Assembly (NCBI RefSeq): GCF_913060805.1 | Contig: NZ_CAJXTC010000002.1 | Location: 62,001-126,000 of the forward strand | Source: an uncultured Draconibacterium sp. | GTDB taxonomy: Bacteria; Bacteroidota; Bacteroidia; Bacteroidales; Prolixibacteraceae | Length of the DNA: 64,000 nt | Direction: 5' to 3' | In this document: positions 5,447 through 12,710 of the stretch, in pieces | Position numbering within the stretch: position 1 is the first letter of the stretch | Layout: each line of letters begins with the position of its first letter | Program-made: the position numbers and the translations under genes | Notes under the pieces: generated by a model | Database searches by the model: none | Seen by the model: the letters and a program-made list of their open reading frames with translations, nothing else | Told to the model about the DNA's origin: nothing

Positions 5447-5520
<74 letters not shown>

Positions 5521-8607: not shown

Positions 8608-8714
8608 GTAAAACTCGAAAAAGAAAGAATCAGCCCTCATAATTTGAAAAAGTTAACGATCGGATGCTTACATTTTTTCAATGTAAACTTTATCTAAAAT
8701 CAATCCAGATAAGC

Positions 8715-8744
8715 TTGCATTTATCAAAAATCAATTTATATTTG
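8715..8744 (+). promoter_or_regulatory. Promoter of the methionine leader/operon
   Basis: TTG (8715-8717), a 19-base spacer and TATATTTG (8737-8744) fit the Bacteroidota consensus. The predicted start near 8749 leaves about 17 bases before the leader ATG at 8766, so the leader peptide is the first thing translated and about 190 bases of untranslated or leader RNA precede the first enzyme-like gene. Confidence 0.7.
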
Positions 8745-8765
8745 CGTTAAACAAATTCGGCAAGA

Positions 8766-8858
8766 ATGAACATTGACAAAAGAAATACTACTTCTTCTAT
8801 CGCAGCAATCCGTTGCGGAGCAATGTTTATGTCGTCTATGTTTATGTCTATGCGATAG
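8766..8858 (+). CDS. Methionine-rich leader peptide (candidate attenuator peptide)
   Basis: A 30-codon frame from ATG 8766 to TAG 8856. After the start it has no Met until codon 20; codons 19-30 then read AMFMSSMFMSMR, five Met in eleven sense codons (20, 22, 25, 27, 29). It sits about 17 bases after a consensus promoter and 83 bases before a methionine operon (aspartokinase-like protein, metY, metA). The run of the codon for the pathway's end product is the hallmark of amino-acid attenuation leaders such as thrL and hisL. The codons for the last Met, the Arg and the stop (8851-8858) form one arm of a perfect stem. Too short for ordinary gene calling. Translation is inferred. Confidence 0.7.
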   Translation: MNIDKRNTTSSIAAIRCGAMFMSSMFMSMR

Positions 8859-8891
8859 CCTTCATTCGATGGTTAATCGTTGTTTGAAGGC
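8797..8891 (+). promoter_or_regulatory. Alternative RNA stems of the methionine leader
   Basis: Stem A pairs CTATCGCA (8797-8804) with TGCGATAG (8851-8858), 8 of 8 bases, enclosing the Met codons. The CGCA of its left arm can instead pair locally with TGCG (8814-8817), and GCAA/TTGC (8805-8808 with 8813-8816) also folds. Hairpin B pairs GCCTTCA (8858-8864) with TGAAGGC (8885-8891), with an inner CGAT/ATCG (8867-8870 with 8876-8879); it begins at the last base of the stop codon. No T-run follows hairpin B, so this is not a standard intrinsic terminator; control of Rho access or of translation of the next gene is the alternative. Confidence 0.5.
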
Positions 8892-8941
8892 ATTCCGTAC
8901 AAGCGTTTATTACACAAACAAAATTTCAAAAAAATATTTTT

Positions 8942-10294
8942 ATGTCGGATAATGTTATTCGATTTGGTGGAAGCCATATTGGCAACCAAATAGCATTACA
9001 AAATTTAAAAGCCTTTTTAGCAGGCAGCAACAGTCGCAATTATGTGGTGGTTTCGGCCATTCCCCAATTGCTCGAGCTTATTCAGTATAATCTGCAACAG
9101 GTATTTTTGCAAGAGCTGGATGAAGAGGAATTACTGAACGAGATTTACGGATTTTATATCGGTACAGTTGATGAACAGCCATCAGAAGTGTATTCAAACC
9201 TAGCCAAACAGTTGGTAGGTTTACTAAAAGGAATTGGGCTTATCGGTGATTATTCGCACGGTTTAAAAGACCAGGTGTTGAGTTTTGCCGAAAAATTGTC
9301 GGTTGAGATTCTGTCGTCGCTTTGGAACGAAGCAAGTATTTTACATCCTGAAGACATTGATTTTCAGGTGTCGTCCGATTTTGGAAATGCAACTTTCCTT
9401 TCGGTTGATACGGCTAAACTCAATAACCTGGAAGCTGGTGTTTACCTGATCCCCGGTACTTTTGGGATAGATGAAAACAAAAAACTGGCACGAACCGGTA
9501 AAACGGCAGCCGATTATACGGCAGCATTTCTTACCAAAGAACTCGGAATTGATACCTTAAAACTTTGGGGGCTTGATAACGATTTTCAGCGGGCGAAACC
9601 TGAGATTATCGAAAATCCCGAGATCATTAAGCGCCTCACATATTCCGAGGCCAGTGAGTTGGCATATTTCGAGCACTATTCGTTTCACCCGCGAACCGTG
9701 GAACCACTGGAGCACTCTCACATCCCGATTAAGGTGCTTAGTCCGGAAACAGCTGATGGCGAAGTTGAAACCATCATCAACACCGAGACTTACATTGAAA
9801 AGCAGATTGTAAAAAGCGTAGCCTGCACCGACGATATTTCGCTGCTAAAGCTTGATGGACCGGGCGTTGGTTTAAAACCTGGTATTCTGGCAAAAGTTAC
9901 CAACCAGCTAAACGATGCCGGGCTAAACATTAAGTCGGTGATTACTTCGCAAACGTCCATCAATTTTATTCTAAGCAAAGAAAATGGTGCAAAAGCATTA
10001 AAACTCGTGCACAAATTGGGCTTTTCGGCTGTTACTGATATCAAGGTTGTGAACGACGTGGCACTGATCGGCATTGTAGGGCACGGAATGCAACAGGCTT
10101 ATGGCGTGTCGGCCAAGATATTTGCTGCGGTGGCCAACAATAAAATTAATGTAATACTAAGCGGCTCCGGCGCATCCGACCTGGTAAGCTATTTGGTGGT
10201 GCAGGAATCCGACAAAGAAAAAAGTGTACGCGAAATTTATAACGCTTTTTTTCTAACCCAACAGATCCTTGAAAGAGGAGTAAGTCCCCTTTAG
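8942..10294 (+). CDS. Divergent aspartokinase-family protein with C-terminal ACT domains, probably catalytically impaired
   Basis: 450 residues with the amino-acid-kinase fold and two ACT regions (about 295-365 and 370-440), as in monofunctional aspartate kinases, which phosphorylate aspartate at the head of the Met/Thr/Lys pathway. Fold markers remain (AEKLS at 116-120, LTYSEASELAYF at 232-243, FHP at 248-250), but the catalytic motifs are altered: KFGGTS is RFGGSH (Arg7 for the catalytic Lys), the glycine-rich GRGGSDYTA is RTGKTAADYTA (184-194), and the TDxDG...DPR nucleotide-binding segment is replaced by GLDNDFQRAKPE (210-221). The ACT region looks intact (GVGLKPGILAKVTNQL). Loss of kinase activity and a regulatory role are inference; a divergent active enzyme is not excluded. 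First enzyme-like gene after the Met leader. Confidence 0.75.
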   Translation: MSDNVIRFGGSHIGNQIALQNLKAFLAGSNSRNYVVVSAIPQLLELIQYNLQQVFLQELDEEELLNEIYGFYIGTVDEQPSEVYSNLAKQLVGLLKGIGLIGDYSHGLKDQVLSFAEKLSVEILSSLWNEASILHPEDIDFQVSSDFGNATFLSVDTAKLNNLEAGVYLIPGTFGIDENKKLARTGKTAADYTAAFLTKELGIDTLKLWGLDNDFQRAKPEIIENPEIIKRLTYSEASELAYFEHYSFHPRTVEPLEHSHIPIKVLSPETADGEVETIINTETYIEKQIVKSVACTDDISLLKLDGPGVGLKPGILAKVTNQLNDAGLNIKSVITSQTSINFILSKENGAKALKLVHKLGFSAVTDIKVVNDVALIGIVGHGMQQAYGVSAKIFAAVANNKINVILSGSGASDLVSYLVVQESDKEKSVREIYNAFFLTQQILERGVSPL

Positions 10295-10309: not shown

Positions 10310-11641
<1,332 letters not shown>

Positions 11642-11653
11642 ACAGAACAATTT

Positions 11654-11718
11654 ACCTGCTGACTCAGGGTCAGCAGGTGAATAAATATTTTCCAACTTCG
11701 GAATGTTGGTTAATTTTG
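11654..11718 (+). promoter_or_regulatory. Hairpin and possible second promoter between metY and metA
   Basis: ACCTGCTGAC (11654-11663) pairs perfectly with GTCAGCAGGT (11669-11678) around a 5-base loop; no T-run follows, so it may be an mRNA-stability or partial termination element. Further on, TAATTTTG (11711-11718) is a full -7 match, but only a weak TTTT stands at the -33 position. It would start metA mRNA near 11723. Confidence 0.4.
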
Positions 11719-11792
11719 CACGAACTCAAAAAAAACGAAGCGGGAGATTGAAAAAACTGGTCCGCTTGTTTCGAAAAAAAAACGACTATAAA

Positions 11793-12710
11793 ATGCCATT
11801 AAATATAAACGACAAATTACCGGCAATTGAAATTCTTCGCGAGGAGAATATTTTTGTAATGGATTCATCGCGGGCATCGCACCAGGATATTCGACCACTA
11901 AAAATTGTGATCTTAAATCTGATGCCGCTGAAAATATCAACTGAAACAGATTTGCTTCGTTTGTTATCCAATTCTCCTTTGCAGATTGAAATCGACTTTC
12001 TGAAAATAAAAGGGCATACGCCAAAGAACACGCCATCGGAACACATGAGTGAGTTTTACGACACTTTTGATGAACTGAAAAATAAAAAGTACGATGGTAT
12101 GATCATTACCGGTGCGCCTGTTGAACAGCTCGATTTTGAGGAAGTAACCTATTGGGACGAAATGAAGGAGATCCTTGACTGGGCCGAGCACCACGTTACT
12201 TCGTCGTTGTTTATTTGCTGGGCGGCACAGGCGGCTTTGTATCATTATTACAAGGTGCCAAAATACCCGCTCGACAAAAAAATGTTTGGCGTTTTCGAGC
12301 ATCGTATGTCAGACAATACCCTGCCAATTTTCAGAGGATTTGATGATGCCTTTTTTATTCCGCATTCACGTCATACCGAGATACGTAAGGAAGATGTTGA
12401 GAAAGTGGATGCGCTAAAAGTAATTTCCTGTTCGGATGATGCGGGTGTGTCGATTGTAAAAGCCAAAAACGGCCGACAGTTGTTTATCACCGGGCATTCG
12501 GAATATTCGCGCAACACACTCGATGGAGAGTATAAACGCGATGTAGCAAAAAATCTACCCATAGAAATTCCTAAAAATTACTATCAGGATAATGATCCGT
12601 CGAAAACTCCGGTTATGCGTTGGAAATCAACGGCAAATCTATTGTTCTCAAACTGGCTGAATTACTACGTTTACCAGGAAACACCGTACGATCTGGAGCA
12701 GATAAGTTAA
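11793..12710 (+). CDS. metA: Homoserine O-acetyltransferase (MetA family)
   Basis: 305 residues from the ATG at 11793, which aligns with the start of known MetA proteins; the in-frame TTG-type start 30 codons upstream lies in the promoter region. Catalytic residues fall at the family's standard numbers: Cys142 (LFICWAAQ), His235 and Glu237 (TGHSEY). Residue 111 is Glu (TGAPVEQLDF). In this family Glu111 selects acetyl-CoA and Gly111 succinyl-CoA, as shown for the Bacillus cereus enzyme, so the product should be O-acetylhomoserine, the substrate of MetY next door. Databases often label this family homoserine O-succinyltransferase, which would be misleading here. Confidence 0.93.
   Translation: MPLNINDKLPAIEILREENIFVMDSSRASHQDIRPLKIVILNLMPLKISTETDLLRLLSNSPLQIEIDFLKIKGHTPKNTPSEHMSEFYDTFDELKNKKYDGMIITGAPVEQLDFEEVTYWDEMKEILDWAEHHVTSSLFICWAAQAALYHYYKVPKYPLDKKMFGVFEHRMSDNTLPIFRGFDDAFFIPHSRHTEIRKEDVEKVDALKVISCSDDAGVSIVKAKNGRQLFITGHSEYSRNTLDGEYKRDVAKNLPIEIPKNYYQDNDPSKTPVMRWKSTANLLFSNWLNYYVYQETPYDLEQIS

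Follow-up and report, generated by a model that had tools for sequence, protein, structure and literature searches.

How would an operon for methionine synthesis be told that methionine is running short? The question is raised by a short open reading frame (ORF) of an uncultured Draconibacterium sp. (Prolixibacteraceae), in positions 62,001-126,000 of contig NZ_CAJXTC010000002.1 (assembly GCF_913060805.1); this whole stretch of 64,000 nucleotides (nt) is the DNA analysed and is called the window here. The ORF, on the plus strand at 8766-8858, has 30 codons beginning with ATG 8766 and followed by TAG (8856-8858), encodes the peptide MNIDKRNTTSSIAAIRCGAMFMSSMFMSMR*, and stands ahead of an aspartokinase-like gene, metY and metA. 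A first-pass annotation of the same DNA had described a 30-codon frame with five methionine (Met) codons among its last eleven sense codons, which can be read directly: the internal Met codons lie at 8823, 8829, 8838, 8844 and 8850 (Met codon run, 8823-8852, plus strand). A Met-ended leader ORF of this kind is far beyond chance; among the longest ATG-started ORFs of 15-60 codons in the window it is the only one with at least five Met in its last 11 codons, and none of 40 Markov-simulated windows contained an ORF comparable by this measure. We consider it likely, judging from sequence comparison, that the leader belongs to a ribosome-mediated attenuator reading the supply of charged Met-tRNA at the aspartokinase-metY-metA operon, and that a Met leader with a hairpin on its stop codon probably tells the cell of methionine shortage. 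The attenuation logic proposed by the first-pass annotation, a Met-rich leader governing a methionine operon, is strongly supported by comparison, whereas the RNA part of that proposal turned out to be wrong in detail.

Independently of the leader, 41 genomes, including that of the window, were searched with the aspartokinase-like protein, and a full-length gene at >=63% identity was present in 18 of them (own genome included), all of the same genus. Each of these 18 genes is preceded, at the same position, by a short ORF of 30-36 codons ending in a Met run (three more same-genus orthologues, L019-L021, are interrupted by contig ends and stand outside the 18), and the alignment of the 18 upstream regions contains a Bacteroidota promoter box before the leader and a hairpin after it. 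Frame and Met codons are kept among relatives, so the failure that the first-pass annotation had envisaged, a lack of conservation, is absent. A covariance model built from the 3' part of the leader (R1) gave matches at E<=0.1 in 106 of 140 family genomes and 15 of 23 genera, with one match per genome; 60 of these were retrieved, the weakest included, and the next gene matches aspartokinase, MetY or MetA in all 60. In the own genome R1 had one strong match and two weaker ones antisense inside genes, and two of the four matches of a pattern scan also lay inside genes. The 18 leaders found via the downstream protein, 60 of the 106 R1 matches, L035 and L036 together formed a set of 80 leaders, from which most same-genus R1 matches were omitted. 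Met occupies the last Met codon (the anchor) and the position two codons earlier in all 80, the position four codons earlier in 52 and that seven codons earlier in 66; apart from the Met run the leader peptides of the family diverge. Comparison shows conservation of the frame, the Met codons, the gene context, three predicted helices (P1, P2 and P3) and a tandem with SAM-I, the S-adenosylmethionine (SAM) riboswitch.

The RNA of 8755-8960 folds with a z of -2.47 (1/200 shuffles equally good), and the predicted helices P1 and P2 and the predicted stop-codon hairpin P3, all on the plus strand, are conserved. P1 joins CGGCA (8758-8762), ending 3 nt ahead of the leader AUG, to TGTCG (8830-8834), which overlaps the Met codon at 8829; P2 is a hairpin within the leader ORF (CGCAGC-AATCC-GTTGCG, 8801-8817); P3 (8858-8891) has an outer stem, GCCTTC (8858-8863) with GAAGGC (8886-8891), and an inner stem, CGATG (8867-8871) with CGTTG (8878-8882). 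P3 is the hairpin that the annotation had called B and had correctly placed on the stop codon, 50 nt before the aspartokinase-like gene: its left arm begins at the G of the stop codon, its end is 50 nt from the gene at 8942, and it is conserved in the family. In 17 of the 18 same-genus leaders (L006, near-identical to L003, was omitted) 96.5% of the cells of the four helices (P1, P2, outer and inner P3) are paired, sliding the helix partners as a control leaves 31-58% paired, and none of 500 shuffles matches any of five measures, a control that ignores relatedness. In this set P1 is paired in 100% of cells, as CGRCA just 5' of the leader AUG with TGYCG in the Met run; all six pairs of P2 have changed on both sides, with 89% of cells paired; and in P3 the outer GCCTTC/GAAGGC is nearly invariant and the inner stem covaries. 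With 46 sequences of P3 the covariation score was reached by 0/500 shuffles, the number of pairs that changed by 26 and the number of pair types by 62; the P3 window has a mean z of -4.78 (below -1 in 16/16 groups) and the P2 window one of -1.41 (11/16). Both strands of P1 vary across genera (GGCAU/AUGCC, CGACA/UGUCG, CGGUA/UACCG; judged by eye also CGCGCA/UGCGC), and in 13 of 14 groups a group's own strands pair more stably than strands exchanged between groups, with a mean difference of -3.05 kcal/mol; three leaders without an assigned start were omitted from the P1 comparison and the swap tests, which leaves 14 of 16 groups. The sole failure is g221, where a SAM-I aptamer lies directly upstream, and f112, also with an aptamer, is marginal. 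The 8-bp stem A of the first-pass annotation, CTATCGCA (8797-8804) with TGCGATAG (8851-8858), does exist, but as a switch it was rejected, with 8 bp in only 3 of the 18 same-genus leaders (L001, L002 and L007) and 3-5 bp in the rest; because stem A is not conserved, its prevention by a stalled ribosome cannot be the general mechanism. When stems are compared among relatives, a check that the annotation had proposed, covariation is seen in P1, in P2 and, within P3, in its inner stem.

The covariation seen in P1, in P2 and in the inner P3 stem, and the overlap of one AUG with P1, would also fit a riboswitch-like structured RNA with an incidental ORF and with AUG triplets that serve as RNA motifs. 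We hold this to be highly improbable: in 75 of 76 leaders the Met run shares its frame with the first ATG past the promoter box, stops counted across 28 codons total 1 in frame 0, 108 in frame +1 and 74 in frame +2, the AUG triplets of the 80 leaders are spaced by whole codons, with Met at the anchor-relative positions almost absent in the other two frames, and the sequence of P1 differs between genera while the Met codons stay. At the gathering threshold an Rfam search of the window matched only a tRNA, and the SAM-I aptamer (RF00162) was not found at this locus; on 8650-8960, with E up to 10, it returned four irrelevant matches and no Bacteroid-trp RNA (RF01692), T-box or other leader. A translated leader might act through its peptide instead. 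TnaC arrests in response to tryptophan, and a Met-rich C-terminus might likewise stall in the exit tunnel on SAM or methionine, not on a shortage of Met-tRNA; M-x-M close to the end is nearly invariant, and MPLMPMCMR, or an end much like it, is seen repeatedly in f112, f97, f8 and metagenome-assembled genomes of Bacteroidales, with Pro and Leu conserved. Within the family, however, only Met is constant (ends include MPSMSMCMR, MSSMPMIMR, MLSTSMFMR, SMFMQ, PMCMC and MIML), and the pairing of P1 explains part of the non-Met conservation (AUGCC), and we regard such an arrest peptide as unlikely.

For an attenuator that reads Met-tRNA, we infer translation of the leader, halting of the ribosome and the sign of the response as follows. 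The leader peptide would be translated from AUG 8766; with plentiful Met-tRNA the ribosome would pass the Met codons, end at UAG and leave, P3 would fold, and expression of aspartokinase-metY-metA would drop. With Met-tRNA in short supply the ribosome would halt on the last Met codons, P3 would be blocked from folding, and the operon would be expressed. Because P3 starts on the stop codon, it would fold only after the ribosome has left, and because the Met codons sit just before the leader end, a waiting ribosome would cover the stop codon and the left arm of P3. P1, which pairs the ribosome-binding region with the Met run, would close the leader once the run is free of ribosomes, and in relatives and at a second locus of the own genome a SAM-I aptamer before the leader start would close it when SAM is abundant. 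The simplest model suggests that a folded P3 means low expression, for which Rho, pausing or an effect on the translation of the next gene are candidate output steps.

The absence of a T-run after the hairpin, as observed in the first-pass annotation, is right and general: a T-run is present in 1/80 leaders, and an intrinsic terminator was rejected for the family leaders, in which the hairpin itself is present. Four further pairings were compared by partner swapping in 14 groups, and no conserved antiterminator was found among them. Own partners beat swapped ones in 6 groups for region 2 with region 4 (GCCTTC-like copies on both sides), in 9 for region 1, the leader start region, with the gene start (-8.7 vs -6.5 kcal/mol within the genus of the window, an advantage that does not hold generally), and in 7 each for regions 3 and 4 with the gene start, and all four were rejected as unsupported over the groups. 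An exception is the Mangrovibacterium-like g219 group, with -10.6 vs -2.3 for region 3 with the gene start. In L081, L085, L087 and L091, also Mangrovibacterium-like, the leader's stop-codon region, TAGCCTTC, and the start of the aspartokinase gene (GAAGGCTATG or AGGCTATG) are complementary; for the g219 group this complementarity hints at an output through translation. Between P3 and the gene lies a G-poor spacer (8892-8941, plus strand), with a G fraction of 0.075; C minus G, averaged over 15 groups, is 0.10, compared with 0.02 (sd 0.07) for 36 of the window's upstream regions. Such a composition would suit Rho but also an unstructured start site. The spacer includes the motif AAGCGTTT (8901-8908), which recurs soon after P3 in genera g1, g220, g226 and g212 and is absent from others; a pairing of this motif with the codons before the stop was rejected as inconsistent, by eye. 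Ten leaders from two genera (L089, L092, L107-L109, L113-L115, L118 and L123) have a mid-leader QPC segment in common (~AACAGCC in DNA), and several of them have a second hairpin after P3.

Outside the family the Met leader was found in f112, f97, f110, f34 and f8 of the order and once in another order of the class (L168, before MetY). These came from several scans: the R2 scan of the order matched 77/393 genomes at E<=0.1, and among 30 loci retrieved 14, with the own locus among them, are Met leaders followed by a met gene and the others look like chance (L155, L156 and one 23.8-bit R2 match in the own genome were left unviewed); the scan of the class matched 70/395 genomes, and only the own locus and L168 hold among the 30 retrieved; a plain pattern over the order matched 9/393, three of them true. 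L139 and L151 were judged to be chance as Met leaders. One genome with a locus from these scans, G358 (L147, G358:C1), has nine weak R2 matches, five with the same score, which are probably a repeated element. A pattern scan of contigs from 84,980 species gave 22 loci, of which 16 precede aspartokinase or MetY (blastx) and five are chance, with L203 taken as the known L090 locus; hosts include Draconibacterium sediminis, D. mangrovi, Maribellus sediminis, Sunxiuqinia dokdonensis, S. elliptica, Mangrovibacterium lignilyticum and Gaoshiqia sediminis.

Ten of the leaders outside the family were searched with Rfam, and RF00162 lies just upstream in nine, the exception being L143, which precedes metH; among seven loci of the pattern scan searched in this way, SAM-I stands before the leader in four (L192, L193, L205 and L206). 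Searched by itself, SAM-I occurs in 64/140 family genomes and in 25/99 order genomes (28 loci), and of these 28 order loci, picked irrespective of leaders, 16 have a Met-rich short ORF, compared with 68/1400 simulated sequences. The leader AUG lies 8-15 nt past the aptamer in 14 of 16 measured loci, and 39 and 43 nt past it in the other two (the count includes both L036 and L206, which are a single locus; L142 and L262 likewise represent one locus). Folding of 31 of 32 wider or SAM-type leaders (L168 was dropped) gave a mean z of -1.37 in the window after the last Met, with 16 below -1; windows within the leader averaged about 0, and the region of the aptamer -0.85. The genes downstream are, by profile, metH (L143, L252, L258 and L261), metX (L142), aspartokinase (L244), metY (L240, L241 and L251) and HcyBio (L233). 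L233 is the second Met leader of the own genome (G000:C7:44800-49400, minus strand): its single SAM-I aptamer (C7:48805-48915) is followed by the leader MKKLHYKLFFTSYLHGANMCMRQRF, which ends in ANMCMRQRF, the hairpin GCGGTTTTAACCGC over the stop, and an HcyBio gene (PF01837). Of the 64 family SAM loci 18 were inspected, with L232 among them, and most have such a leader before an HcyBio-looking gene, as checked by profile only for L233; in L232 and in the g19 genomes (L234-L236) aptamer and leader precede aspartokinase. The leaders of L234, L235 and L236 are minimal (MITIYYITRTNTSML* and similar peptides); they have only one internal Met and lie between the SAM-I aptamer and a GCCTTC hairpin. 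At L223 SAM-I is followed by a possible GTG-started leader ending in FMHFSNRCMR* and then a 250-residue gene. We lean slightly towards the view that in a good part of the Bacteroidales the expression platform of SAM-I is a Met-codon leader, in which SAM would gate initiation and Met-tRNA the fate of the ribosome, and that in Draconibacterium-like genomes P1 would replace the aptamer at aspartokinase-metY-metA, making it a pure Met-tRNA sensor, with the tandem retained at the HcyBio locus.

The tandem also bears on a constitutive short ORF, or an AUG-x-stop mini-ORF, that would tune downstream translation or reinitiation without methionine sensing. AUG-NNN-UAG is the most constant piece of the leaders, with one codon after the last Met (CGA, CGC or CAA in 77) and then TAG in 76/80, the g19 genomes keep a single internal Met (TSML*), and the spacer from P3 to the gene is fairly constant (median 53 nt; 40-80 nt in 69/80). 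Yet every downstream gene that was identified belongs to the methionine pathway, several internal Met codons are in frame with the upstream start, and the leaders stand in tandem with SAM-I riboswitches; we give this explanation rather little credence.

Several points weigh against an attenuator that reads Met-tRNA. Methionine starvation should lower initiation with formylmethionyl-tRNA (fMet-tRNA) too. The model through which 62 of the 80 leaders were found partly favours their Met positions, the stop is lost in L017, L018, L079 and L100, where the ORF extends into P3, and the outer stem of P3 hardly varies and so yields little covariation. To these are added the near absence of a T-run and of any conserved antiterminator among the pairings compared. 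In the wider material, 12 of the 28 order SAM loci are without a Met-rich ORF and two of the 16 with one are doubtful (L238 and L263), in 15/31 wider or SAM-type leaders the hairpin behind the last Met does not fall below z -1, and two family SAM loci (L225 and L237) precede HcyBio without a leader.

To our knowledge, no leader-peptide attenuator has been described for methionine, perhaps because every protein also starts with Met, and a conserved Met attenuator, if true, would fill that gap. In the trpL, hisL and thrL leaders an ORF rich in codons for the pathway product precedes the operon, with hairpins overlapping the ORF end. The window leader is like these attenuators in its short ORF before an operon, its run of end-product codons and the hairpins at the ORF end; unlike them it uses methionine, has no T-run terminator (1/80) and no conserved antiterminator among the pairings tested, and its P1 pairs its own ribosome-binding region with the Met run. 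Bacteroidota make little use of Shine-Dalgarno sequences. The mgtL leader senses Mg2+/proline. In the passages on the metE and ppe2 B12 riboswitches of M. tuberculosis, the upstream ORF (uORF) of ppe2 is described as a relay between aptamer and gene (PMC11260477). As in that system and in mgtL, an aptamer and a translated short ORF are combined in one leader, whereas the SAM aptamer and the Met codons would sense product and precursor of one pathway, the ORF of the tandem starts at a nearly fixed short distance past the aptamer, and the window copy is without an aptamer. Mycobacterial cysteine leaders and the actinobacterial LEU element share with the Met leader a codon run near the stop, but here covarying hairpins are present and the amino acid is methionine; the relevant passages of that study report no conserved terminator hairpin for the cysteine leaders, for which its authors suggest Rho, and no conserved RNA structure upstream of methionine operons of Actinobacteria (PMC1262725). 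Bacteroid-trp RNA (RF01692), which has a table entry in PMC2864571, is perhaps a leader-peptide attenuator of Bacteroidota. SAM-I itself precedes the same kinds of genes in relatives, and the second leader of the own genome, and is missing at the window locus.

No description of a Met leader peptide was found in the open-access literature among the matches listed, and an earlier description is possible. Short ORFs reminiscent of leader peptides are noted in long 5' untranslated regions (UTRs) of B. thetaiotaomicron, and the passages on these ORFs name no methionine leader (PMC7366714). SAM-I is noted in Bacteroidetes in passages of PMC2211319 and PMC2258182, in neither of which the term 'leader peptide' occurs, and none of the terms looked for occurs in PMC4239095. 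If true, the tandem would be a two-input sensor of one pathway in which the riboswitch targets the start site of the leader, and the near-uniform distance from aptamer to leader, together with the occupation of one position by P1 or else by an aptamer, makes this directly testable. Unannotated short ORFs could then be assigned to the methionine regulon, and HcyBio genes would be tied to it.

As regards the surroundings of the leader, the consensus promoter claimed in the first-pass annotation is likely one of Bacteroidota type (8715-8744, plus strand), with TTG at 8715-8717, 19 nt and the box TATATTTG at 8737-8744; a scan with E. coli sigma-70 found no promoter in 8650-8920. The box TAnnTTTG, which we take to be the Bacteroidota consensus, is present in 76/80 related leaders. 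Upstream of it, at 8690-8712 and assigned to no strand, a palindrome TTATCT-N11-AGATAA was spotted by eye in the alignment of the 18 upstream regions; it is partly kept within the genus and is a possible operator for some regulator, which would add control of transcription. Downstream, on the plus strand, the aspartokinase-like gene (8942-10294) has AA_kinase and ACT domains and matches NCBIfam aspartate kinase models below their cut-offs. That the following genes make methionine, as the annotation had stated, agrees with profile matches above cut-off for metY (O-acetylhomoserine aminocarboxypropyltransferase, 10340-11641, TIGR01326) and metA (homoserine O-acetyltransferase type, 11703-12710, NF047918). 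Because the NF047918 match begins at residue 31, the metA ORF as listed is probably 30 codons too long, with the true start at 11793. The three genes probably form one operon, since the gaps between them are only 45 nt (aspartokinase-like/metY) and 61 nt (metY/metA). Elsewhere in the window a tRNA gene (RF00005, 72.5 bits) is located at 5447-5520.

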